This document shows positions 1 to 22,593 of a stretch of DNA of 24,522 nt, piece after piece. The DNA comes from a virus. A program made the translations under genes and the position numbers. The notes beneath the pieces are model-generated. The model made no database searches. It was given only the letters and a program-made list of their open reading frames with translations, and was not told where the DNA came from. Position 1 is the first letter of the stretch. The number at the start of each line of letters is the position of its first letter. The DNA lies in the IMG/VR virus record IMGVR_UViG_3300045950_000093, positions 1 through 24,522 of that record. One strand, written 5' to 3'.

Positions 1-1027
1 TTTCGTCGTGCAGATTCACCATCGCGCAAACGTGGTTGGGGATCACCCGCAAACGGTCCCCGACGCGATGCCGCGCTTGCGACGCGCTCAGGTCAACATG
101 GCCGTGCTCTTCCGAGAATCCCATGATTACCGCCGCGGGATCTTCCATGATCCGCCCAAAGCCGGCGCCGTTTCCGGTGCGCAAGCGGTCGGAAGAGAAG
201 GTCTTCGACCCACCGTCGACCATCATCCGTCCCGGGACGGCGTTGCTCACCACGGTCACCAGCACCGAGGCCGCGCAGTCCTCGATGCCGCAGGCGCCGG
301 TGCCGATGGTGTTCATGTCATTGAAGATGTAGGTGCCGGGACGAATCTCGTTGACACCCGGAAGCTGATGAGTGAGCTGCGCCGAGGGCGTCGAACCCCC
401 GCTGATGACTTCCAGCGGGAAGTCGGCTTTGGCGAACAGGTCCAGAATCTCCAGCAGCCGGGTGCGTTCCTGGGCCAGCAGTTCGTGATGTTTCTCGCTG
501 TTGGCCAGGAAGTGCCCCGGATAGACCATTACGCCGCGAAAGCGCAGGCCGGGCAACGCGCAGATGTGGCGCGCCATGGCCACGGCTTCGGGTCCGGCGC
601 TTACCCCGCAGCGGCCGAACCCGGTGTTGATTTCCAGGAGCGCTCCGAACTGCGCTTGGCGCCGCGCCGCGGCCGCCGACAGTCCCTCGGCTGCTTCGAT
701 GGAATCGACTGCCACCGAGACGCGCGCCCGGCGCGCGACCGCCGCCAGGCGCTCGCACTTCTGCGCGCCGACCACCGGATAAGCCACCAGAATGTCCGGC
801 AAGCCCGCCGCGGCCATCACCTCCGCCTCTCCGACTTTGGCCACCGTGATGCCGATGGCGCCGGAGCGCATCTGCCAGTGCGCCAGTTCCGGGGTCTTGT
901 GCGTCTTGGTGTGGGGCCGCAGGTTCAGTTGGTGGTCGCGGCAGTAGGCCGCCATCCGCGCCAGGTTGCGTTCGACGATGTCGAGGTCGATGAGCGCCGC
1001 GGGTGTATCGAGGTCGGAGAGCCGCAT
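1..1027 (-). CDS. D-threonine aldolase / D-serine dehydratase-like PLP enzyme, 3' end beyond the window
   Basis: The frame opens with ATG at 1027 and stays open to the window edge, giving 342 residues without a stop. It reads as a fold-type III pyridoxal-phosphate enzyme of the alanine racemase N-terminal superfamily (DSD1/D-threonine aldolase branch), which cleaves or deaminates D-hydroxy amino acids in the cytoplasm. The start MRLSDLDTPAALIDLDIVERN is typical. RPHTKTHK at about residues 37-44 holds the predicted PLP lysine (Lys41). Near the visible end PNHVCAMVNLHD carries His332 and Cys334, the H-x-C pair that binds zinc in D-serine dehydratases; many threonine aldolases have H-x-D there. 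D-serine dehydratase activity is therefore slightly favoured, but I cannot settle the substrate. It is a host gene, outside the prophage. Only the last few dozen residues should be missing. Its upstream region holds repeats and the probable phage end, so the insertion may have separated it from upstream genes or signals. Confidence 0.9.
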   Translation of the reverse strand, partial: MRLSDLDTPAALIDLDIVERNLARMAAYCRDHQLNLRPHTKTHKTPELAHWQMRSGAIGITVAKVGEAEVMAAAGLPDILVAYPVVGAQKCERLAAVARRARVSVAVDSIEAAEGLSAAAARRQAQFGALLEINTGFGRCGVSAGPEAVAMARHICALPGLRFRGVMVYPGHFLANSEKHHELLAQERTRLLEILDLFAKADFPLEVISGGSTPSAQLTHQLPGVNEIRPGTYIFNDMNTIGTGACGIEDCAASVLVTVVSNAVPGRMMVDGGSKTFSSDRLRTGNGAGFGRIMEDPAAVIMGFSEEHGHVDLSASQARHRVGDRLRVIPNHVCAMVNLHDE

Positions 1028-1197: not shown

Positions 1198-1279
1198 TAA
1201 CACACGGAACTGCAAAACCACAGAGACACAGAGGCACAGAGCAAGCTTCCTTCGGACTCTGTGTCTCTGTGCCTCTGTG
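1198..1279. repeat. CACAGAG palindromic repeat, copy 2, interrupted at its right edge
   Basis: This is a direct repeat of 1041-1122 with four differences in 82 bases, including the leading TAACACACGGAACTGC. The right arm ends at CCTCTGTG and then changes to TAGCTTCGG, where copy 1 goes on to GTTTGG. The palindrome is therefore cut a few bases short of closing. The break falls where the candidate phage end begins. Confidence 0.8.
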
Positions 1280-1287
1280 TAGCTTCG
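1276..1287. other. Candidate right end of the transposable prophage
   Basis: The host palindromic repeat stops matching its neighbour copy at 1280. The sequence there reads TGTGTAGCTTCG, offering a terminal TG at 1276 or 1278, the dinucleotide at which Mu-like phages end. The first 22-bp-type repeat begins 10-12 bp further in. If the end is at 1278, the duplicated 5-bp target would be CTCTG (1273-1277). The other phage end is outside the window, so the exact base cannot be proven here. Confidence 0.45.
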
Positions 1288-1352
1288 GCAACGATCCGTG
1301 GCAGTGATCGGCAACGCTGCGTGGCAGGAGTGCAACACTGCGTGGCAGTGAC
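1288..1352. repeat. Three contiguous 21-23 bp direct repeats, candidate transposase-binding sites
   Basis: Units at 1288-1310, 1311-1331 and 1332-1352 all begin with GCAAC and share the core CGTGGCAG; units 2 and 3 differ at few positions (GCAACGCTGCGTGGCAG against GCAACACTGCGTGGCAG). They are head-to-tail with no spacers. Mu-like phages carry about 22-bp transposase-binding sites in the same orientation near the right end, and this cluster sits between the last late gene and host DNA. The role as transposase sites is inference from position, size and spacing. Confidence 0.6.
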
Positions 1353-1416: not shown

Positions 1417-1698
1417 CTACTGCCTGACCTGGGCGATGGTGAACGGGCCTGGAGTGGACGGAACCACCCAGGACTCGCGCCAAGCGCCAGGCGAATAAAC
1501 TACCGTGTACGTGCCTGGGACCAAGCTCACTCGGATGCGGCCTGCGACCACCGGTACCGTCAGCCGGCCAGCAGCGATTGTGAAGCCGTCAGGTGAGGCC
1601 CCGGCGTTCCAGGTGATCTCCAGAGATCCCTTGGGGACGGCAGCGCCATCTGCGCCCTGTACGACATCGTCAATCACGCGCAGTGCAGGTCCAGGCAT
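1417..1698 (-). CDS. Small beta-rich protein, last gene of the tail cluster
   Basis: The product has 93 residues, starting at ATG 1698, which overlaps the TAA of the large tail gene (TAATG). The sequence alternates short hydrophobic strands (SLEITWNAG, GFTIAAGRLTVPVVAGRIRV, YTVVYSPG), suggesting a single beta-sandwich or immunoglobulin-like domain. There is no signal peptide, membrane segment or catalytic motif. As the final gene of the late operon, next to the large tail protein, it is most likely a tail-tip accessory or fibre-tip module. I do not recognise the family. No convincing terminator follows it before the repeats at 1288-1352. Confidence 0.7.
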   Translation of the reverse strand: MPGPALRVIDDVVQGADGAAVPKGSLEITWNAGASPDGFTIAAGRLTVPVVAGRIRVSLVPGTYTVVYSPGAWRESWVVPSTPGPFTIAQVRQ

Positions 1699-4600
1699 TA
1701 CGCCACAAGCCTTCCTCTCCGCCCCGCTTCCGGCAAAGGTAGAGCCAATCCTTTGAGTGTGAAGTGATCCCACGCCCAAAGCGAAACTTTCAGACCTAGC
1801 CCGCGCGCGGCAATCAACTCGCGCTCGTAGACTGCGCTCGCCGATAACACAGGCAGGTTGTACCAGAGGTCGGCGGACGACCAAGCGCGCGGCGGCGTCA
1901 TCGGGAAGCGCATCGCCTCGATGGCTTTGGCCAGGTTGTGCTCGAACGCACCGAACGACAGCGCCTCCATCTTGAACGTGTCGAGGCCGCTTCCAGCTTT
2001 CTGCCAGAAGGCCGGCGGCAAGTTCACGTACAGAGAAAGCTGCTGGTCGTCGCGATTTACGTCGCGTGCCCAGAGCAATTCGAACTTGGCGCTTGGGTGC
2101 GACGCCAGGACGTGCGCGCGGATCGCGTCCACATGAGCCTGGAGGCGAGCGCGCAGAAAGTCGGCATCAGCGTATCCGTTCACAGCCGGTGAATCGTTGA
2201 GGGTTGCGAAGACCTGGAGAGCCCGGCCGAGCGCCGCTTGCGCCGCAGCTGTCGTGTCAGAGTCATAGAACGCCGTCTTTTGATTCACGTCCCCTTGCGC
2301 GTACCACCAGAGGAACTCACCGAACTGAAGCCAGATGCCCAGTCCCGCCGCGTTCATCAGATCCGCCAAGTATCGGTAGACGCGCTTGTGATACGCGAGG
2401 ATCGTGGATGAGAACGTGCAGTGCGTGCCGTTGAAGCCTGGAACCACCTGAAAAGTGGCTTGATCGTTATTCGCGTAGCGAGACGCCCACACCTGGCCAC
2501 CGCCTGGGTCCTCAGGCGGGTTCGTCATGTCGAAGGAGAAAGTGGACACGACCTCGATCCCATAGGCGCGCGCCGCTGAGAAGAAGTCCGCATGCCACGA
2601 CCGCGCGGCCAAGTCGAATACGGGATCGGCGGCTGCATCGATCACGTAGGTGCCGAGCGAGCGCGTTGCGCTCGCGCTCATGTCCCCACTCACGGAGACC
2701 GTTCCGGCCGCGCTCGTCTTGGCCGTGCTCAGGTCCACAATGTCCACGGGCGACCGGACGGTGATCGTGAGTACAGCGCCGGCCACGCTTGCCCAACACG
2801 CCGTGAAGACGGCGTTGATCGCGCCCGCCAACTGCTCCGCGATGCTGTTGAGCGTGTCGGCGGCAACGACGGTCTTGGTGATCGACGTAGCGCCAAAGGT
2901 AAGCGTCACTGTGTCGCCGTCCGCCCAGGTCCCACCAAACGTCACCACGGATTGCGGGAAGATTCCGTTGATCCGCACCCTCTGCGCGTAGAACAGGATG
3001 CCAACGAAGTGGTTGATGCGTCCACGCAGGCCGGAGCGATGAATCTGCCACACCAACCGCTCGGGTGGGAGTCGATACGAGTGATCGGTGTCGTAGTCTG
3101 TGGCCACGGCCACGTCAGAGTAGATGACTTCAGGATCAGGTACGTCGGCCTCGACCACTGCGTCCAGAAAGTCGAAGTGCATGATGCCGGCACTGGCCAG
3201 CGTCACCTCCACGTTGTGCTTGCCCGCCGCCAGGCCGCTGCGGATCTTCCGGCGCGCCCAGCCATCGCCGTTCGCGGCGTCGAGCGTAGTGGGTGCGTCG
3301 CCATCAACGGAAATAGCGTACACTCCATGCCCCGCGCCAAGGATCGTGCCGAGCCATAGATCATGCGCATACTGGCACCAGATCGTGATGGTGACCTTTG
3401 CCCCGATTTGCGATGTCGAACGGCCGTAGCCGCGATAGAAGCCGTTCGAGGCTTCCTCCGTCCACACGCCGCTGTACACCGCCCACCGGCTGCGTGATCC
3501 CACACGCACGGATTTCTTTGGGTCCGCGATCTTCAGAGTGCGGAAGCCATTGGGATCAGTAACTGTGATGTTCGAGAACCTGGCTGTCCATTCGGTGTTC
3601 GAGTAAGCTCCGCTATCGACCAAGCGTGGAGCCAAGGTCAGCCACATGCGCCTGATCTGCGTGATGTCCAGCGCTGAGAAGTCGAGCCGAATGCGCCAAG
3701 TGACCTCGGAATTCCCGCCGGCGAGCTTCACCGACGCCTGGGAGCATTTCAGGTTGTCGTTCTTATGCCGCTCGAACACGGTCACCATGTTGCCGTCGTA
3801 CCCGCCGCGCGGCGCCAGGTAGTTGACGCTGCCTTGTCCAGGAGCTGCGGGCGCGATCAGCAACTCGGTGGGGCTGTTCACTTGCGTGACCGTGTAATCC
3901 ACGCCGGCGATGCGAATCGCATCGCCGCCCGTCAGCCCGCTGAACCTCTCCCCTGAAATCCATGTCACCAAGTTGTCGAGCGTGTCCACCTTTCCGTAGC
4001 GTGCCGCTTTCAGGTTCAGGTTGTTGCCATTCCGGTCGGCACGCAAGGCGACCGGTGCGCCGATTCCGTTCCAGTTGGCGTCGTTGATCGCAGTCGCGAA
4101 CCACTTCACTACCGTCGAGAGTGTCACGCCGTAGAGTGTCTGTGTCCCACCCTCGGCCGTTGACGAGATCACGAAGCTCCCGCCGTCGTCTTTGCGGCGG
4201 TCAAGATCCACCTGGTGCGTAGGCACGCCCTGCGCCGCGACCACGTAGGGATCGCCTGCGCCGGCGTTAATCGCGCCGACCAGTGCCACAGCGACAGCCG
4301 CACTCGTATCGCCGGACTGCTCCGTGTACTCGTAGTTGACGCCTGCGACCGTGATGCGGTGAACCGTCCCCGGTGTGCCGGCGAAGAACTGGTAGGAGTG
4401 CTTCACTTTGGGCACGATGTAGTCCCACCCGATGCCCAGATAGAAAAGCGTGACGCGGTCGAACTGCGCGACGCCCTCCGCGCCTTCGGTGAACGTCAGC
4501 GTGCCAGCTGCTGCCGGCCACGATCCAAAGTTCACCAGGGTCGCGTAGTCCCACAAACGGATCTTGAATGCTGTGCCATCCGCCTTCAGCACGTTCAGGT

Positions 4601-4910
4601 AGGGCCAGTCAATCCAAGGAAATTTCGGAGACTCAATTGGCTGGAGGTCGTCGTAGAGCAGATCGAACTCCAGCACCATGCCCGCGAAATCGAAGTGCGG
4701 AAGCCATTTCCAGCGTGGGTGTCCGAAGTAGTCGTCCGCGTCGTAGAGGATCACTTCGGCTTTGTCGACACGGTCGCGGAAAACGCCGCTGACGCTGAAG
4801 GCGTTCTCGCTCGTCGAGTGGATCGCCGCTGTGAGCGTGGCGCTCAAAGGAGACACACCCAGATGGACCGTGCGGCGCGGATCGAACTTACGAAGCTGCT
4901 CGACGGCCAT
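1698..4910 (-). CDS. Large tail protein with probable TIM-barrel C-terminal domain
   Basis: The product has 1070 residues. The open frame extends upstream, but ATG 4910 (MAVEQLRKFD) is chosen because it overlaps the ASCH gene stop in a TGATG junction. Two similar beta modules are visible: residues about 180-225 (TVHRITVAGVNYEY then AVALVGAINAG) and about 660-710 (VTLTFGATSITKTV then AEQLAGAINAV). Both are the type of small repeated domain common in phage tail proteins. From about residue 765 the sequence looks like a (beta/alpha)8 barrel, with WHADFFSAARAYGIEVVSTF, LGIWLQFGEFLWWY, FELLWARDVN and LKVSLWAWDHF as strand ends rich in aromatic and acidic residues. This could be a glycan-binding or glycan-cleaving tail domain, or the barrel of the non-contractile tail sheath protein family. 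Catalytic residues cannot be assigned. It is probably the host-recognition end of the tail. Confidence 0.75.
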   Translation of the reverse strand: MAVEQLRKFDPRRTVHLGVSPLSATLTAAIHSTSENAFSVSGVFRDRVDKAEVILYDADDYFGHPRWKWLPHFDFAGMVLEFDLLYDDLQPIESPKFPWIDWPYLNVLKADGTAFKIRLWDYATLVNFGSWPAAAGTLTFTEGAEGVAQFDRVTLFYLGIGWDYIVPKVKHSYQFFAGTPGTVHRITVAGVNYEYTEQSGDTSAAVAVALVGAINAGAGDPYVVAAQGVPTHQVDLDRRKDDGGSFVISSTAEGGTQTLYGVTLSTVVKWFATAINDANWNGIGAPVALRADRNGNNLNLKAARYGKVDTLDNLVTWISGERFSGLTGGDAIRIAGVDYTVTQVNSPTELLIAPAAPGQGSVNYLAPRGGYDGNMVTVFERHKNDNLKCSQASVKLAGGNSEVTWRIRLDFSALDITQIRRMWLTLAPRLVDSGAYSNTEWTARFSNITVTDPNGFRTLKIADPKKSVRVGSRSRWAVYSGVWTEEASNGFYRGYGRSTSQIGAKVTITIWCQYAHDLWLGTILGAGHGVYAISVDGDAPTTLDAANGDGWARRKIRSGLAAGKHNVEVTLASAGIMHFDFLDAVVEADVPDPEVIYSDVAVATDYDTDHSYRLPPERLVWQIHRSGLRGRINHFVGILFYAQRVRINGIFPQSVVTFGGTWADGDTVTLTFGATSITKTVVAADTLNSIAEQLAGAINAVFTACWASVAGAVLTITVRSPVDIVDLSTAKTSAAGTVSVSGDMSASATRSLGTYVIDAAADPVFDLAARSWHADFFSAARAYGIEVVSTFSFDMTNPPEDPGGGQVWASRYANNDQATFQVVPGFNGTHCTFSSTILAYHKRVYRYLADLMNAAGLGIWLQFGEFLWWYAQGDVNQKTAFYDSDTTAAAQAALGRALQVFATLNDSPAVNGYADADFLRARLQAHVDAIRAHVLASHPSAKFELLWARDVNRDDQQLSLYVNLPPAFWQKAGSGLDTFKMEALSFGAFEHNLAKAIEAMRFPMTPPRAWSSADLWYNLPVLSASAVYERELIAARGLGLKVSLWAWDHFTLKGLALPLPEAGRRGRLVA

Positions 4911-5314
4911 CAGGCAGCCTCCTGCGGCCGCGCCCACTCCCACAGCCAGAGATAGCCGCGCGCCTGGATTGGCGGATCTATCAACCGAGGGTTGCGAAAG
5001 ACCCACGCGAAACGGCCGGGACCATAGTTGCCGAATTCGAGCTCGCGCTGGTCGATGCTGGCGACGATATCCTCGGTCGACACGCAGTCCACCAGGTCCA
5101 CAGTGCAGATAACAAGGCCTAGCGGCAACCAACCCTTGTGCCAGTAGTGGAACGTCGGTGCGGCGGCGAGATCCTGGCACCAGACTGGGAATGCCCGCGC
5201 GGCATGAATGGCCAGCGGTCCCCGATAGCGCGTGCACCACGACCGTGTTTCAATCGACTTCGCGCCCAGGGCGACAAGCGAAGCCCACGGCTGAGTCATG
5301 GTCAGGGCCTTCAT
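4910..5314 (-). CDS. ASCH-domain protein
   Basis: The product has 134 residues and is a single ASCH (PUA-like beta barrel) domain. The N-terminus MKALTMTQPWASLVALGAKS followed by IETRSWCTRYRGPLAIHAA (residues 21-39) carries the family features: QPWA at 8-11, a G-x-K at 17-19, E22-x-R24, and the RYRGPL-IHA strand. The C-terminus PIQARGYLWLWEW also fits. ASCH domains bind RNA or modified nucleosides, and some members hydrolyse N4-acylated cytidines; which applies here is unknown. It overlaps both neighbours by TGATG junctions, so it is co-translated with tail genes although it has no obvious structural role. It may be an accessory gene acting on host RNA or nucleotides. Confidence 0.85.
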   Translation of the reverse strand: MKALTMTQPWASLVALGAKSIETRSWCTRYRGPLAIHAARAFPVWCQDLAAAPTFHYWHKGWLPLGLVICTVDLVDCVSTEDIVASIDQRELEFGNYGPGRFAWVFRNPRLIDPPIQARGYLWLWEWARPQEAA

Positions 5315-8702: not shown

Positions 8703-9139
8703 GCCGCTACTCCGTGGAAACGCGCCAGCACCTGGCTGGGCCCGGCGGGCGCGAGCGCGTCGGGCAAGACGCGGAACCGGAACGATTCGCTGTAGCGCTG
8801 CAAGCCGACGCGCTTCGGCTGGAACTTCTTGCCCTCAGCGACGCAGTGGTACTGCTCGTTGATGTCGCTGTTGGGGTAGAAGTCGAACTGCCCTCCGGCC
8901 AGCGCAAACTGCATGAACAAGTCCCACGCGTTCACCGCCGCCAGGTCCATCGCCGGCATGGTGAACTCGATCATCAGGTCCAGGTTCTCGACCACGCGCT
9001 CACGGGCCTGGCCGCCCGTTGCCAGATTGTCGTGGAGGCGGCCTTCGGTGTAGCAAGTGAAGTTCTGGGGTCCGTTCACGAACTGGAGGACGACGGCAGA
9101 AGAACCAGCCGGCGTGTAGACGATCTTCGGCAGGCCCAT
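8699..9139 (-). CDS. Distal tail (Dit-like) minor protein
   Basis: The product has 146 residues. It begins at ATG 9139, overlapping the tape-measure stop (TGATG), with GGAG 8 bases upstream; GTG at 9142 is an equally in-frame alternative. The protein is beta-rich (VVLQFVNGPQNFTCYTEGRL, LDLMIEFTMPAMDL, GGQFDFYPNSD) and has no membrane segment. The gene directly after the tape measure usually encodes the distal tail protein, the ring to which the tip attaches, and the beta-sandwich-like sequence fits. The family was not recognised with certainty. Confidence 0.7.
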   Translation of the reverse strand: MGLPKIVYTPAGSSAVVLQFVNGPQNFTCYTEGRLHDNLATGGQARERVVENLDLMIEFTMPAMDLAAVNAWDLFMQFALAGGQFDFYPNSDINEQYHCVAEGKKFQPKRVGLQRYSESFRFRVLPDALAPAGPSQVLARFHGVAA

Positions 9140-10899
9140 CACCGCGTCTCCTGGCCGCTGCGGCGCACGCTGGTCGCGATCAGGCGGACGTCGCGGTCGC
9201 GCACCGCCTCGTTGATGATGTCTGTCATCTCCTCGATGCCGGCCCGGCCGATAACATGCCCCTGGATGATCACCGTTACCCCGCCGCGCGGCCTGTCGCT
9301 CGCCGATCCGCCGCCGTCAGCAGGCAGCCCCCCGACCAGTCCAACCGGCGTCGCACTGACGCCGCCGCCTGTGCGCGGCGGCGCAATTGCGCGGCCCGCC
9401 ACAGCGGCTGCCCCGCCGACAGCGCCGAATATCGCGGCCGAGGTAAACGCCTCCCCTGCGGCCTTGAAATTGAAGTGCGCCAAGTGCCAGAACCCCAGAG
9501 CTGTGGCGTAGATCGCGCGGACAAACGCTTCGGCAGCCAGCGATGCAAGTACCGCAGCGGTGGCTTGGCGCATCGCGTCGGTGATGGAGCCGCGGTATAC
9601 GATGGCCATGGCGATCGCCTGGCCCAGAGCCTGGTTCAGCGCCAGTAAGCCGCCGCGCATCAGGTTCGTGGACTTGAGCCAAGCGTCGGCGGCCGCGCTG
9701 GGGGCGCTGACCGCAGCCGCTTCCCACTCCATCATTTCCCGCAGCGATTGGCTGAGCGCCGGGCTGAGGATCTCCGTTAGCGGGCGGCGAAATCCTTCCA
9801 TCGCTTTCGCCGCCGACTTCTGCATCTCCTGCTCGAACTCAGCCAGGTCGTCGAGGTACTCCTCCATCCGCGCAAACTCTTCATCGCGGATCAGCCTCTC
9901 GAATCGCTCTGCGGGCGTCAGGAGCGACGGTGCGGGGCGTTCCGGAACAGCAGGGACGAATACAAAGGGTGTCGCCTTTTCAGCAGCCGCAGCGAAGGTC
10001 CTGCCCGCGCCTTCCGCCGCGGACTCGGCGGCCTTGATGCGCTTCTCCAGGTCGGCCCACAGCAAGGCGAACTGCGCGCCGATGTCCGCGCCGACCGTCC
10101 ACACACTGGTCTGGCCGGTGATGAAGTTCTTGGCGGCAATGGCAGCGGCTTCCATCAGGACGATGAAGCTGCTCAGCTTGGGCAACACCTTTTGGCCCAC
10201 CTGGAGCACCATGGCGTCCCATTGGGCGTTCAGGTGCTGCAATTCCATCGTGAACTGCTTGGCGGCGACGATGTCGTGGTCGGTGAGGACCAGGCCGAGT
10301 TCCTCGGCGCGGCGGGTGAATTCGCGAATGCCCTCGCTGCCCCGATTCAGGAAGTCAATCAGTTCCGCCCCGCCGCGCGAGAACAGTTCGCGAGCGATGC
10401 GCGCCTTGGCCGTCGCGTCTCCCGATGAGCGAAAGGCATCGGAGACGCGCAGCAGCATCCGCTCCATGTCGCCGCCAGAGTGCACCAGGTCTTGCTGGCT
10501 GATCCCGAGCCGCTCGAACGTGGCGACCTGCTCCGTCGAGCCGCTGCGCGCACGATCAATAGCGGCAGCGAAGAAGATGAGGGAATTGCCCAGGAGGTCT
10601 TGATCGACGCCGAGCTGGCGCGACGCGAAGCTCAGCCGGGACGCCGCTTCCGCAGAGAGGCCAGTTTTGTCCGCTAGCGCGTCGATGTTGTCGGCGTAGT
10701 CGGCCGCCTTATTGGCCGCCGCAACGAGAGCGCCCACGACGGCCGTGGCTCCGGCTGCAGCCGCGCCGGCCCACACGGAGAAATCAGCCTTCAACGACGC
10801 AAGACTGCCGGACAGCAGCTCGCGGAAGCGGTTGAGCGCGCCCGCGGCTTCGTTGGCGTCCGCGCCGATCTTGAAGAGGAGTTCGGAAGTCTCAGCCAT
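9139..10899 (-). CDS. Tape measure protein
   Basis: The product has 586 residues. ATG 10899 overlaps the end of the chaperone T extension (stop at 10892-10894). The opening ELLFKIGADANEAAGALNRF and the following small-residue hydrophobic segment (about 42-62, VWAGAAAAGATAVVGALVAA) are characteristic, as are the long Ala-rich helices and the hydrophobic patch at about 485-515 (FTSAAIFGAVGGAAAVAGRA). The motif AADYADNIDALADKTGLSAE (65-84) is typical of tape measures. The protein sets tail length and occupies the tube lumen. At roughly 0.15 nm per residue this would give a tail somewhat under 90 nm, an estimate only. No lysozyme or peptidase domain is seen. Confidence 0.92.
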   Translation of the reverse strand: MAETSELLFKIGADANEAAGALNRFRELLSGSLASLKADFSVWAGAAAAGATAVVGALVAAANKAADYADNIDALADKTGLSAEAASRLSFASRQLGVDQDLLGNSLIFFAAAIDRARSGSTEQVATFERLGISQQDLVHSGGDMERMLLRVSDAFRSSGDATAKARIARELFSRGGAELIDFLNRGSEGIREFTRRAEELGLVLTDHDIVAAKQFTMELQHLNAQWDAMVLQVGQKVLPKLSSFIVLMEAAAIAAKNFITGQTSVWTVGADIGAQFALLWADLEKRIKAAESAAEGAGRTFAAAAEKATPFVFVPAVPERPAPSLLTPAERFERLIRDEEFARMEEYLDDLAEFEQEMQKSAAKAMEGFRRPLTEILSPALSQSLREMMEWEAAAVSAPSAAADAWLKSTNLMRGGLLALNQALGQAIAMAIVYRGSITDAMRQATAAVLASLAAEAFVRAIYATALGFWHLAHFNFKAAGEAFTSAAIFGAVGGAAAVAGRAIAPPRTGGGVSATPVGLVGGLPADGGGSASDRPRGGVTVIIQGHVIGRAGIEEMTDIINEAVRDRDVRLIATSVRRSGQETR

Positions 10900-16503: not shown

Positions 16504-17436
16504 TTACGCGACGGCGTTGATGAACCGCGTGCCGCAGTCCTTCGAGACCGTCTTGAGGGCGTAGTACTTCAGCACCTCGATCCAGTCCCCGCCGGCCGGC
16601 TCGTCGCGGTAGCGCTTCACCAGGCGGCCCAACTCGCCCACGTTCCACAGGAACGTGTACGCCAGGGCCATCTCATCGGGAGAAGGCTGCGCCGGGGCGT
16701 AGAACAGGATCGCGGTCTTGCCCCAGATGTAGTCGAGACTGGCGGCCTGACCCTCGGCGGCGGTGTCCTTCTTGGCCGCGCCGACGATCACCTCGTCGAT
16801 CTCCAGCAGCTCGGCCAGGGCCTGCGCGGTGACCCGGCTGCCCTCGAGGTTGGTCGATCCGGTGATGCGGCCGGTGACCTTGGCGTTGTTGCGGATGCCC
16901 CGGAAGACCGGAGCGGAGAGGAGCAGCTTGTTCGGCTCGACGCCGATGCGCTTGCCGATGGTTTCCTTCTCCGTGTAAATCCGCTTGATGGGATCGACGG
17001 TGTCGTCATCCCACTTGGCGGCGACCAGGTCGACCTGCGACGCCCCGGTCATGTCGGCAGCGAGCTGCGTGGCCAGGTTGTCCTCCTGCGCCAGCATGAT
17101 CATGCTGGTCAGCCGCCGCGTCTTCTGGATGTCGAGGCTGAGCACCGTGTCCGCGTTCTGGACCTCTTCGTCCGACAGGAATTTGCGCAGGGCGTGCCCG
17201 TCGCAGAAGTAAGCATCGGTGGAGAGCGTGTCCTCGGCCTCGTTGGCGACTGCGCCGGCGCGCTTGCGGTCGTCCAGGACGCGGAAGTCTTCCTTGCCCC
17301 AGACGTGATACTTGTCGCTCTGTTTCTGCACGGTGACCTCGGGGGCCACCCGCGGAGCAACCAGAGCGGCGTTGCGGAACTGCACGCTGACGTTGGTCAG
17401 AGCCTGGTCAACGTGCACCGAGTTGGGCGAAAGCAT
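16504..17436 (-). CDS. Major capsid protein (HK97-like fold expected)
   Basis: The product has 310 residues from ATG 17436, preceded by AGGAGA 9 bases upstream. The N-terminus (VHVDQALTNVSVQFRNAALV, APRVAPEVTV) and the following KYHVWGKEDFRVLDDRKRAG are typical of a capsid family found in Mu-like and related siphophages. The central helix (TRRLTSMIMLAQEDNLATQL) would be the spine. Later segments AKVTGRITGSTNLEGSRVTA, LLEIDEVIVG and the closing strand region also fit. It follows the protease and decoration genes in the usual order. No protease cleavage site can be identified from sequence. It forms the icosahedral shell. Confidence 0.88.
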   Translation of the reverse strand: MLSPNSVHVDQALTNVSVQFRNAALVAPRVAPEVTVQKQSDKYHVWGKEDFRVLDDRKRAGAVANEAEDTLSTDAYFCDGHALRKFLSDEEVQNADTVLSLDIQKTRRLTSMIMLAQEDNLATQLAADMTGASQVDLVAAKWDDDTVDPIKRIYTEKETIGKRIGVEPNKLLLSAPVFRGIRNNAKVTGRITGSTNLEGSRVTAQALAELLEIDEVIVGAAKKDTAAEGQAASLDYIWGKTAILFYAPAQPSPDEMALAYTFLWNVGELGRLVKRYRDEPAGGDWIEVLKYYALKTVSKDCGTRFINAVA

Positions 17437-18050: not shown

Positions 18051-19106
18051 TCAGTTCTTCCCGCGTTGAATCGCCAGCTTGCGGCGCACCAGGTCGGCGT
18101 TCTCGCTGGCCACGAGTTTCAACGCCTCGCCGTAATCCTTCACGCCGCCCTGCATCTTGGCCTTGACCTTCTGGTCGATCTCGGCCTCGACGCGCTGCAG
18201 CTCGGTCAACTGCGTGGCTTCCTCGCCGGTTCCCGCGATGCCGCGCTCGTTGAGGTCCACCTTCGGGGCCGACTTGTCGATGATCGACTTGACGCTCTCG
18301 AACCCACCGTCGCTGAGGGCCAGCTTCAGATAGTCCTCGCGGTTGGCGGGTAGGACCTTGCCGTCCTTCACCGCCTGATCGATGAGCGCGATGGCGCGTT
18401 CCTGGTTGTGGCGTCCGACGAAGACATCGGAGGCGTACACCACGTCGTCGCCGGTGGGCATCTTCGCGAAGTCGTACAGGCCCTTCGCGTCGCGAGGCAC
18501 GTCGGTGAGACGCACCACGCGAGGCTGCTTCTCTTGCGCTTGCTCTTGCGTTGCGGTATTGCTCACGGGTTGCTCCTTCTCCCCGCCGTGCGGGGTTTCA
18601 CTTGCACTCTGCCAGCCCGCTTCCGAAAGCTGGATCGCGGGCATGGCGTCGAAAAACGGCGTGTTGGTGACGGCCAGGCTGCGCAGCGTCGTGCCCTGGT
18701 CCTCGCCTGTCTTCTTGTCGTGTGCACCCCAGTAGATGACCGGCGAGAGGTATTTCAGCTCGCCGGCCTCGATCATCTTTCGGCAGCGTTCGTTCAATTC
18801 GGCCAGACCCCACCAAATGCCTCGCTCGTCCGGCTTGTCCTCGACCTGCTTCAACCAGCCGGCTGCGGGAATGGGCTGCCCCTGCGCGACTTCGGGGAAC
18901 TCGCTGGCGTGCTCGTAATCGATCACCGTGTCGCCCTCGCGTTTGCGGAAGTTCGCGACCATTGCGGCGATGTCTTGCAGCGTGACGGCGAACTTCTGCG
19001 CGCCCTTGACCCAGCGCCCGATCATCGCCAGCGGGATGCGGACCAAACCCTCGGCAAACGTGAGCGCGCTCAGATTGACGACAAAGATGCGGTCCCGGTC
19101 TTTCAT
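18051..19106 (-). CDS. Mu I-like prohead protease and scaffold
   Basis: The product has 351 residues. ATG 19106 is chosen over the upstream frame because it overlaps the portal stop (ATGA) and follows AGGAGA. The protease domain covers residues 1-160: DYEHAS (63-68, catalytic His66), YLSPVI (119-124, Ser121) and LAVTNTPFF (144-152) are the Mu I-protein motifs. The next 30 residues are a Glu/Gln-rich linker. The C-terminal half (about 190-351) is helical, ending in LTELQRVEAEIDQKVKAKMQ, as expected of a scaffold segment; in Mu the scaffold Z is made from an internal start in the same frame. It directs capsid assembly and is then removed by self-cleavage. Confidence 0.88.
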   Translation of the reverse strand: MKDRDRIFVVNLSALTFAEGLVRIPLAMIGRWVKGAQKFAVTLQDIAAMVANFRKREGDTVIDYEHASEFPEVAQGQPIPAAGWLKQVEDKPDERGIWWGLAELNERCRKMIEAGELKYLSPVIYWGAHDKKTGEDQGTTLRSLAVTNTPFFDAMPAIQLSEAGWQSASETPHGGEKEQPVSNTATQEQAQEKQPRVVRLTDVPRDAKGLYDFAKMPTGDDVVYASDVFVGRHNQERAIALIDQAVKDGKVLPANREDYLKLALSDGGFESVKSIIDKSAPKVDLNERGIAGTGEEATQLTELQRVEAEIDQKVKAKMQGGVKDYGEALKLVASENADLVRRKLAIQRGKN

Positions 19107-21265
19107 GCGGCTCTCCTGTCTTCTCTGGCTTCGTCGGCAAACACGTAGACGTGGACGCAGCGGCATTTCGCGCCGCCCAGGCAGTCCGGGTTCGGGACGT
19201 CGGGGATCTCGTCCGGTGTCTTTGCGGTTCGTCCATCCGCCTGCTGGCATGGCTCGCAAACATTCGCGTCGAGGATCGCCGAGTACTGGACCTCGGCAAT
19301 ATCATCGGCGTACTGCTCATACCCCGCCTGGCGGCCGTCTGCGAAGGCTTCGTTGGCGGCTTCGGCGGCGATACCGTCCACCCACTTATCCGATTGCTCG
19401 TCGAGCAGGTCCTCGGTGCGGCGGATGATCTCGCCCCGGGTGATCTCGTCGTCGCCGGCGGCGCGGCGCTTCTGGTCGGCCACGATGTTGGCGGCCCGCG
19501 CCGTCAGGTTGTTGACGAACTTTGAGACCGTGGCATCCGCGTAGACGCCCAACGGATTGCGCTTGGCCGCGCCCGTAAACCGCAGGTCCGGTGCCTCCGC
19601 CGGAGCTTTGCCGGCGCGCTGCCGGCGGCGTTCCTGGCTGACCTGGCCGCGCCCGAATTGCGCCACGTCGTCGAGCACCTTCTCGATCCCGGCGATCAGC
19701 CGGGTATCCGGGGCGACCGACACGCGGTGCAGCTCGCGGATCGGCGCGGCCGCCAGACGCGACACCACCTCCGCCTGGATGCGCGACCTGGCCTTCCGCA
19801 TCGCCGCAGCGATCTCATCGCGGCCGCGGTCGAGCTCCGAGACGATCTCATCGAGCGCCAGGTATCGCTCGTAGCCCCGCGCCGCTCTGCGTTCCGACCC
19901 TCTGAATCTGCGTTCATCTGCGGGGGTGCCCGACGCGTTCAGCGTTGGGCCCTGTGGTTGCGGTTTCCGTTCCGGCGCGCCGAGCTTCTGCCGCAGCCAC
20001 GCCTCCAGATCCTCATCCGGCTGGACGGCCCCCGCGCCGGCGAGCCTCTGGAGTGCACTCACAATTGCCTCGAGCTTGAGCGCTAGAACCTGCGCTGCGA
20101 CCAGCCGCGGCGGCCGCACTTGCTCACCGAAGTTGAGCGTCACGATCCGCCGGATCGTAGTCGCGTTGAAGACTCCGGCGATGTTCTCCGCCGTCGCCTG
20201 CAGCGACAACATGAAGAAGTCGCCTAGCGACTCGCCGAGCGCGCGGTTCCCGGTCTGCGACTGGCCGAGCATCATGAACTGCGCCAGCGCGGCGAGCGAA
20301 ATCTGCACCTTGTGGTGCAGGATCAGGTCTTTCGGATCGCGCGTGGTTCCGGTGACGCCCTCCAGCTTGAAACTCCATTCGGGCGGCAACACCAGCGCCG
20401 CCTTCTCGTGCGTCGAGAGCTTCTGCAACCAGTCAATGGCCGTCTTGCGGTCCTCGGCCTTGGGATTGGGTCCCATCACGACGACAGGCACGCCCAGGCC
20501 GTTGCGCTCGGCTGCAATCGCCGCGATCTTTTCGAGCGCTTGCAACATGTACCAGTGTTTGTAGGCAGGCCGCAGCATCGAGCGGCCCGCGAAGTTGTCG
20601 CCTTCCTGCTGGTGCACGAACAGAGACAGCTTGGTCGCCGGAACCTGGACCGTGAGATATTGCCCGGCCCGATAGCCCTGCTGCTCAAGAGCCTGGAGTT
20701 CTCCGAGATCGTTGACGATCCAGCGGTAGAAGGTCTGGGGCAGGCGCGGCGCGAGCTTGCGCAGGCGCACGCGATTGCCGTCGACCTGGTAGACGTCCTC
20801 GTGCGCGGACGAGCCGAAGTCGAGCATCAGCAGCGCGTTCTCGAGCGCTTTCTTGAAATCGACGCACTCCCACAGGCACTCCTTCACCAGCTCCACAGCC
20901 TCTTCTTCGACCGGCGTGGGATCGGGCGGCGGAACTATCTGCCAGTCCGCGCCGCGGATCGGCAGCTTGACGGCCAACAAGGTCGCGGCGACCTGTGCGT
21001 CCGATCTCCGCATCTCCTCGTACACGCGATAGGCGGAGAGGCCGCTGAGCGTGGCGTTGTACTCGCCCAGGTCCCGCAAGAACCCGCCGAGGACGGGCGT
21101 CCCCGTGACACCCAGTTCCGACTCGACAAACGCACGGTCCACGGGAGGCGGAGCTTGCTTGTCCACTCCGAGCCAGCGCTGGATGGCGCCTGCAAGGCTA
21201 AAGCGCTCGCGCTGGATGGCGCCTGCAAGGCTAAAGCGCTCGCGCTGGATGGCGTCGCGGATCAA
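19103..21265 (-). CDS. Portal protein (Mu gp29-like, DUF935) fused to MuF-type domain
   Basis: The product has 720 residues. The start is TTG 21265, supported by GGAGG 7 bases upstream and a 4-base TTGA overlap with the terminase stop. Residues about 50-440 are a DUF935 portal: YNATLSGLSAYRVYEEMRRS, DAQVAATLLAVKLPIRGADW, FVHQQEGDNFAGRSMLRPAY, NGLGVPVVVMG, SQTGNRALGESLGDFF. Residues about 500-705 are a Mu F/SPP1 gp7-type head morphogenesis domain, with YSAILDANVCEPCQQADGRT (661-680), C695 and CRC at 701-703 as its Cys pattern. Mu encodes these as two separate genes. The fused product would form the dodecameric vertex and bring the ejected MuF part with it. An in-frame tandem repeat lies at residues 5-26. 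Confidence 0.88.
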   Translation of the reverse strand: MIRDAIQRERFSLAGAIQRERFSLAGAIQRWLGVDKQAPPPVDRAFVESELGVTGTPVLGGFLRDLGEYNATLSGLSAYRVYEEMRRSDAQVAATLLAVKLPIRGADWQIVPPPDPTPVEEEAVELVKECLWECVDFKKALENALLMLDFGSSAHEDVYQVDGNRVRLRKLAPRLPQTFYRWIVNDLGELQALEQQGYRAGQYLTVQVPATKLSLFVHQQEGDNFAGRSMLRPAYKHWYMLQALEKIAAIAAERNGLGVPVVVMGPNPKAEDRKTAIDWLQKLSTHEKAALVLPPEWSFKLEGVTGTTRDPKDLILHHKVQISLAALAQFMMLGQSQTGNRALGESLGDFFMLSLQATAENIAGVFNATTIRRIVTLNFGEQVRPPRLVAAQVLALKLEAIVSALQRLAGAGAVQPDEDLEAWLRQKLGAPERKPQPQGPTLNASGTPADERRFRGSERRAARGYERYLALDEIVSELDRGRDEIAAAMRKARSRIQAEVVSRLAAAPIRELHRVSVAPDTRLIAGIEKVLDDVAQFGRGQVSQERRRQRAGKAPAEAPDLRFTGAAKRNPLGVYADATVSKFVNNLTARAANIVADQKRRAAGDDEITRGEIIRRTEDLLDEQSDKWVDGIAAEAANEAFADGRQAGYEQYADDIAEVQYSAILDANVCEPCQQADGRTAKTPDEIPDVPNPDCLGGAKCRCVHVYVFADEAREDRRAA
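21176..21254. repeat. 33-bp in-frame tandem repeat at the portal N-terminus
   Basis: Units at 21176-21208 and 21209-21241 are identical; a third, partial unit continues to 21254. On the minus strand each encodes AIQRERFSLAG, so the portal begins with MIRD, two copies of this peptide, and then AIQRWLGVDK. Removing both units would leave the natural-looking start MIRDAIQRWLGVDK. The length (33) keeps the frame. It may be a recent duplication or an inserted repetitive element. Confidence 0.9.
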
Positions 21266-22593
21266 AACGCTGCCTCCACCAGGTTGCCCGCCACGGTGTT
21301 GCCCACCAGGCCGCCGTCAGCGAGGGGCACGTAGCCGGGCGAGCTGGCTGCGGAGACGGCCAGCGCCAGCGCCCAGAACTCATCCGCGTGACCGTGTTGG
21401 CTGCGGGCGGCGTCGAAGCGCATCTTGCCGGTGTCGCTCACGTAGCGCCGCAGGCTCTGGATCGCGCGGCGCAGGTCGCGGCTCGACGGGATCAACACCG
21501 TCCGCTCTTCAAAGCGCCGCTTTACCTCGACCGCCAGGCGTTCCTTGACGGGCTGCGTGAAGTCCACCGGTTCCACCCATGGGAACTCGCTGTTCAGTTC
21601 CTCGGCCAACTGGCGGCCGATGCCGGTCTGATCGATGCACAAGCGGTCAACGCAAGCAGCTACATCGGCGGCCACGGAGCGCTGCTCGGCGAAGGGCATG
21701 CGGCGCAGACTGATGACGCCACGAGTGAGGAGCGTGCCTCCAGGCAGCGCCTCCAGAATCCAGATCGTGGAGAGATCGCGCACGCGGCCCACGTCCATGC
21801 CGGCGTACACGCCAGGCCGCTTCAGACCGTCGAAGGCAAGCGGGCACTCGACCGACTCGCAGCCGAGGATCAACTCGAGCGGAATGAACTCGTCGCCGCC
21901 GGCCATTGGGACGCACAGGTATTCCTGCGCCCAGATCTCCTCATCGGCGATGGCGAGGCGCAGTGCCTCGACGTCCACCTGCAAGCCCTCGCGGACCGCC
22001 ATCTCGATGGAGACCCAGTGCCCGCTCCAGCCGTTGGGCGCGACCACCGGGCAGCCCGCCGGCTCGACGCCCGCGTGCAGCCCGCACTCCTTGGCCAGCT
22101 CATAGAACTTGTTGGCGGTGCCCATGAACGTGGAGGCCACGTCCACGCTGTAGCCACGCGTGATCCGCGACATCATGGCGGCCCAGATCGCCCGGTCGTC
22201 CTGGTGCATGGCGAACTCATCGAGCAGCACATCGCCCGAGTAGCCGCGCGCCGTGCGCGGATTGGCCGGCAGCGAGATGATGCGGCTGCCGTTTTTGAAG
22301 TTCACTTCGTGCTGCGTGATGGTGGTGTCTTCAAAGAACGAACTGCTCGACTCCACGGCCACGCCCATCGCTTCGCAGTGCCGCGCGACCTTATCCACCA
22401 GCAGTTCTTTCGACTGGCGTTCGCCGGCGCTCAGAAAGATCGAAAGACCGGGCGTCTCGATCCGCCGCAGCACATGCTTGAGCGTGGTCGTAAAGCTCTT
22501 CCCGGTCTGCACCGAGCCGACCAGCAGGCAGAAGCGCGCATCGTCCGCGATGTAGCGCTTCGACCAGTCGAGGAGTTGGATCGCCGGGGTCAT
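21262..22593 (-). CDS. Terminase large subunit (Mu gp28-like)
   Basis: The product has 443 residues from ATG 22593, two bases after the small-terminase stop. The ATPase half shows a Walker A motif GSVQTGKS (26-33), Walker B VLLDEFA (122-128, Asp125 and Glu126) and a coupling region STFMGTANKFY (154-164). The nuclease half shows three acidic positions of an RNase H-like site: GMDVGR (Asp267), IDQTGIG (Asp321) and HADE (Asp404). It cuts and pumps DNA into the prohead through the portal. Mu-type enzymes package headful DNA from integrated copies and take up flanking host DNA. All motifs look intact. Confidence 0.93.
   Translation of the reverse strand: MTPAIQLLDWSKRYIADDARFCLLVGSVQTGKSFTTTLKHVLRRIETPGLSIFLSAGERQSKELLVDKVARHCEAMGVAVESSSSFFEDTTITQHEVNFKNGSRIISLPANPRTARGYSGDVLLDEFAMHQDDRAIWAAMMSRITRGYSVDVASTFMGTANKFYELAKECGLHAGVEPAGCPVVAPNGWSGHWVSIEMAVREGLQVDVEALRLAIADEEIWAQEYLCVPMAGGDEFIPLELILGCESVECPLAFDGLKRPGVYAGMDVGRVRDLSTIWILEALPGGTLLTRGVISLRRMPFAEQRSVAADVAACVDRLCIDQTGIGRQLAEELNSEFPWVEPVDFTQPVKERLAVEVKRRFEERTVLIPSSRDLRRAIQSLRRYVSDTGKMRFDAARSQHGHADEFWALALAVSAASSPGYVPLADGGLVGNTVAGNLVEAAF

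Follow-up and report, generated by a model that had tools for sequence, protein, structure and literature searches.

Where does the phage in this metagenome fragment end, and do the three tandem repeats found beside its host DNA mark the end of a transposable element? The window analyzed here, i.e., the whole stretch of 24,522 bp, holds one side of the phage and one copy only of any target duplication. The first-pass annotation had proposed a Mu-like right end starting with TG. We conclude with high confidence that a Mu-like transposable prophage of an acidobacterium has its right end at positions 1280–1348, with a TA terminus, a predicted 5-bp target duplication, and three sites (R1–R3) with the core TGGC.

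Repeat array and host junction

The left edge of the window carries a host gene for an Ala-racemase/D-Ser dehydratase-like protein (2–1027, minus strand), of which the best relatives are found in Terriglobia, Acidobacteriota. From 1417 to the window end, all genes belong to a late module encoded on the minus strand. This module consists of a short last late ORF (1417–1698, or up to 1884 in a longer TTG-start version), whose start overlaps the stop of the next gene, and genes for a tail protein of the non-contractile tail sheath TIM-barrel type (1698–5240; PF23845, phrog_6040), a tape measure protein (9139–10899), a major head protein (16504–17436; phrog_1005), a Mu I-type protease/scaffold (18051–19259; PF10123), a Mu-type portal with an F-like C-terminal part (19103–21265; PF06074, with PF04233 below its cut-off), and a large terminase subunit (21262–22593). 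Portal_Mu, the Mu I-type protease, and the related head protein constitute a Mu-type head module, with which the sheath-like tail protein coexists. The portal and the F-like domain are encoded in a single 720-aa frame, and a long frame was also observed in several relatives. A head-to-tail repeat of a ~33-bp stretch, cgctggatggcgcctgcaaggctaaagcgctcg, was additionally seen at ~21178–21250, at the portal gene start near the terminase gene end. No transposase or integrase gene was recognized within the 24,522-bp window.

Between the last late gene and the host DNA, the sequence GCAACNNTNCGTGGCAG occurs in exactly three copies (1288, 1311, and 1332), all on the plus strand and aligned head to tail with a spacing of 23 and then 21 bp. 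The control gave no hits, and the repeat families D2 and D3 agree with this triple count. The location, coordinates, and spacing of the array are hence as first described. Among triples spaced 20–24 bp apart, the array exhibited the best score of 42/48, compared with a maximum of 37 in 300 dinucleotide shuffles of the window, none of which equaled it; no second triple of such strength is present in the window. A scan of viral contigs gave two matches to the repeat pattern, both of which were discarded as chance-like occurrences in unrelated, apparently coding DNA. The three units were assigned as putative transposase-binding sites, R1 (1280–1304), R2 (1311–1327), and R3 (1332–1348), all on the plus strand, whose TGGC cores are located at nucleotides 20–23, 43, and 64 of the phage, respectively. 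The right end of the window phage thus appears to bear multiple transposase-type sites, as would befit a Mu-like end.

The terminus itself was located from the adjoining host DNA. Two sister repeats (1037–1122 and 1194–1279) share 94% identity, and their match ends after position 1279, which agrees with the earlier claim that a genuine host repeat ceases to match its sister copy at the phage boundary. A host hairpin repeat was recognized here from arm pairing (I1–I3), of which one copy is intact (1051–1133), while the right arm of the second (1208–1279, plus strand), identified also by comparison with the sister copy, was truncated by the insertion. Its arms consist of CACAGAGACACAGAG, the two copies lie 157 bp apart, and it resembles a dispersed host repeat element. 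The second copy follows both the first copy and the complementary sequence of its left arm as far as 1279, where the agreement stops. Since TGTG at 1276–1279 still matches both of them, the TG at 1276 or 1278, from which the phage had been thought to start, is host DNA. T1280 is the first base unexplained by the host repeat, from which the phage starts as TAGCTTCGG... The terminus reads 5'-TA inward (1280–1281, plus strand) and is identical at 19 of 25 positions to the right end of the related prophage G251, with the host repeat fixing the register independently. Within the first unit, GCAAC begins 8 bp inside this terminus, and TGGC 19 bp inside. In place of TG...CA termini, both the host repeat and the register hence give TA at 1280. 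By alignment with the right ends of the relatives, the phage begins at TA 1280–1281, and the truncated host hairpin independently puts the junction at 1279/1280.

From this terminus and the length of the duplications in two relatives described below, the target duplication is predicted to be CTGTG, with the host copy beside the phage at 1275–1279 (plus strand), instead of CTCTG or CCTCT as suggested previously. The remainder of the cut host hairpin arm, GTTTTGCAGTT, is predicted to lie beyond the phage left end, following the second CTGTG. A search for this left junction with the pattern AACCACAGTA N17 TGGC gave at least 120 matches, none of which was accompanied by a transposase of the G298 type or by the host repeat context.

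Ends and target duplications of related prophages

A related head protein is encoded in 43 of 399 Terriglobia genomes, and a single-protein scan with the window head protein detected no close relatives in viral or genome contigs. The closest large locus to the window is G298, which is collinear with it (TerL, 48%; portal, 51%). This locus and G251 are complete Acidobacteriota prophages possessing terminal inverted repeats and the triple array at the right end. In G298, three units are located past the last late gene, 21 and 22 bp apart, and the end pair TACTACGGAGCACG... / TACTGCGGCGCACG... is accompanied by an exact 5-bp duplication, TCGCG, when the right end is paired with the left flank; this end pair alone is not significant, being equaled in 3 of 20 shuffles. 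In G251, the array spacing is 22 and 23 bp, the end pair is TAGAGGGGGCAG... / TAGTGCCGGCAG..., and the exact 5-bp duplication is GTAAG. The terminal inverted repeat of this prophage matches at 19 of 25 positions, against a maximum of 16 in 20 shuffles. When G251 was excised in silico with one GTAAG kept, a 674-aa frame was restored, which reads ...SYGDCKDKANLMRALL... at the junction and matches DUF3857 and Transglut_core. Since the host flanks and a single GTAAG regenerate this transglutaminase frame, the phage extends exactly from TAG to CTA. Both termini of G298 and G251 are TA, as is the right terminus of the window phage, and the 5-bp duplication expected at insertion sites of relatives was found in both prophages, neither of which has a 6-bp duplication.

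The TGGC cores are positioned at nucleotides 20/43/64 from the tip in the window, 20/42/63 in G298, and 20/43/65 in G251. Sharing of the array and its register with the right ends of two transposable prophages, together with the portal kinship described below, argues for the assignment of the window array to the right end of a Mu-like phage, and its proposed likeness to R1-R2-R3 of Mu is supported at the sequence level by the same triple in G298 and G251. The left ends of G542, G546, G488, G401, and G402 also start with TA and carry TGGC at 20, though the T[AG]N17TGGC search that found them accepts either TA or TG and demands TGGC, and these ends are hence not independent of the pattern; homology of the G542 left end to G298 extends well past the search pattern. 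The mean pairwise identity of the ends is 0.53 inside and 0.28 outside the border. In total, ten readable ends of the clade begin with TA and two further ends are ambiguous, a count that overstates independence as five were picked by the pattern; only the window, G298, and G251 count as independent cases. The left ends of G530 and G478, which belong to the same transposase clade, are ambiguous.

In G298 and G251, a second copy of the site follows 116–118 bp inward from the left end, as does a weaker one in G542 and G546. Inverted copies of the repeat unit had been anticipated at the other boundary, where related sites indeed occur in the relatives, but as one terminal site and one ~117 bp inside rather than as a mirror-image triple. 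By sequence, the ends are asymmetric, with three tandem sites on the right, and one terminal and one distant site on the left. The IMG/VR relatives gave no recognizable terminus at their right ends; several of these records begin or end at gene borders and seem trimmed. Several further arrays were left uncounted: the right end of G530 has three TTGGAC-like units and TA without a matching duplication; the triples in G333, G253, G339, and G130 have different cores and unclear context; and a TGGCA-core triple at a contig edge of G098 (G098:C47, L139 ~36–95), at the right end of a prophage, would by register start with TG and is accompanied by a transposase only 23% alike to that of G298.

These ends bear on whether the window could instead carry a Mu-like end of the canonical kind, with TG/CA termini and a start at the TG of position 1276 or 1278. 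TG-CA is usual for Mu and B3-like phages (PMC8705779), and TG does occur at both positions; however, the TGTG there belongs to the sister copy and hairpin arm of the host, every readable relative end in register starts with TA, and the border of G251 is fixed by the restored gene. We hence regard a TG/CA end as highly unlikely.

Transposases of the relatives and proposed mechanism

The transposase of G298 is a 680-aa protein (DDE_2, phrog_310), of which PDB relatives are TnsB and MuA, and its gene is followed by one for an AAA ATPase that belongs to phrog_296, a phage transposition-protein family. This ATPase was checked and found in G298, G251, and G098, and both MuA- and MuB-family genes are present in G298 and G251. 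The similarity of the G298-clade transposase to MuA is recognizable only at E ~1e-5. The columns that do not vary among seven transposase relatives include Asp259, Asp331, and Glu386, which, given a spacing resembling that in MuA, probably form the DDE triad. For detection of the transposase, the G298 protein query worked better than Pfam DDE_2, which detected G298 only. Ten IMG/VR records encode transposases 43–56% identical to that of G298, and nine of them carry window-related portals with identities of up to 60%. In the transposase tree, all TA-ended members fall in a single clade (100/99). The portal tree places the window beside G546 (97/97), within a set of which the other members all encode the G298-type transposase; the fork defining this set has mixed support (81/100).

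Other features were observed in these loci. Collinearity of G545 with the window extends through the tail gene; the interval from that gene to the right end, which can accommodate accessory genes, contains what looks by eye like a gene for a DNA cytosine methyltransferase (~39600–40490; L384 ~18890–19780). In G531:C225 (L239, 50–4036), the portal gene has a transposase fragment next to it and no head protein was detected, as in a deleted prophage. Distant MuA-like transposase genes in G294, G348, G376, G289, and G397 (L194–L207) are opposite in strand to the head genes, unlike Mu.

Could the late module derive from an integrase-type phage, with repeats that serve, for example, regulation or packaging and are unrelated to integration? 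Such an origin would account for a window without a transposase gene, and the G298-type transposase was also not seen in the DNA taken for several more distant head relatives (G058, G044, G008, G081, and G122). It is hardly credible, however, given that the nearest head relatives all have TnpA, and that the array coincides exactly with the host junction and has the register seen in two complete transposable prophages. An assembly chimera, or an IS21-like insertion-sequence end with multiple terminal repeats beside phage DNA, is conceivable for a metagenome fragment but has a negligible probability, as no insertion-sequence gene was recognized between the repeats and the late genes and a G251-like terminus exactly at the host hairpin cut would hardly be expected of a chimera.

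For the transposable prophage, the following mechanism is proposed. The tandem sites R1–R3, with the core TGGC and 21–23 bp apart, would serve as loading sites for a MuA-like DDE transposase, the gene for which would lie outside the window. This enzyme would pair the right end with a left end presumably bearing one terminal and one internal site, nick 3' of the terminal TA, and join both ends to the target DNA at positions staggered by 5 bp. The phage would replicate by transposition, as in Mu.

Comparison with known transposable phages

Descriptions up to 2021 gave TG-CA as the conserved ends of Mu and B3-like phages (PMC8705779). This rule has been regarded as nearly universal among Mu-like phages and used for border finding. 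For genomes such as those examined here, a practical prophage-border rule is TA followed by TGGC at nucleotide 20, with the triple array at the right end. Burkholderia phage KS10 is also transposable and was reported to lack TG...CA termini and to have its own 15-nt sites, but no target duplication was found for it, and it has two sites per end and a D3112-like transposase (PMC2628397). The G298 TnpA matches only 20 of 50,697 phage-collection records. The nearest TnpA proteins among isolated phages in this collection are those of BalMu-1, Rhodovulum phage vB_RhkS_P1, and Fusobacterium phage phiRTG5, with identities of at most ~29% over about half of the protein. A new transposase specificity had been predicted for the window, and its site was indeed not matched to described Mu-like phages; the specificity is not unique to this phage, being common to a clade of Acidobacteriota phages.

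Mu shares with this clade the MuA- and MuB-family genes, the Mu-type portal and protease head genes, three right-end sites, a 5-bp duplication, and an asymmetric left end. It differs in its TG termini, in contrast to TA and a TGGC-core site in the Acidobacteriota clade, and in having portal and F in separate genes, which occupy one frame in the window phage; the latter also has a long non-contractile-type tail protein. A closer parallel in the termini is given by 28 Leptospira prophages with TA-TA ends and 6-bp duplications, for which the authors left the occurrence in other bacteria open (PMC8705779); no report of TA-TA phages outside Leptospira was found in the limited set of papers searched. 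The TA-TA ends of an Acidobacteriota phage clade bear on that question: TA-ended transposable phages, a kind previously reported only in Leptospira with 6-bp duplications, exist in Acidobacteriota with a 5-bp duplication and a TGGC-type site. Their natural end/transposase pairs provide a test of the role of the penultimate base in MuA-type strand transfer. The Leptospira WETA1 group likewise comprises Mu/B3-like transposable prophages of ~38–40 kb with TA at both ends, a MuA-like TnpA, and a partner protein (PMC8705779), a likeness by description, and its 6-bp duplication differs from the 5 bp in Acidobacteriota. The chances seem to us evenly balanced that the Acidobacteriota TA clade, with its 5-bp stagger and TGGC-core array, arose independently of the TA-TA group in Leptospira; the TG/CA rule would in that case reflect lineage rather than a chemical requirement of MuA-type enzymes.
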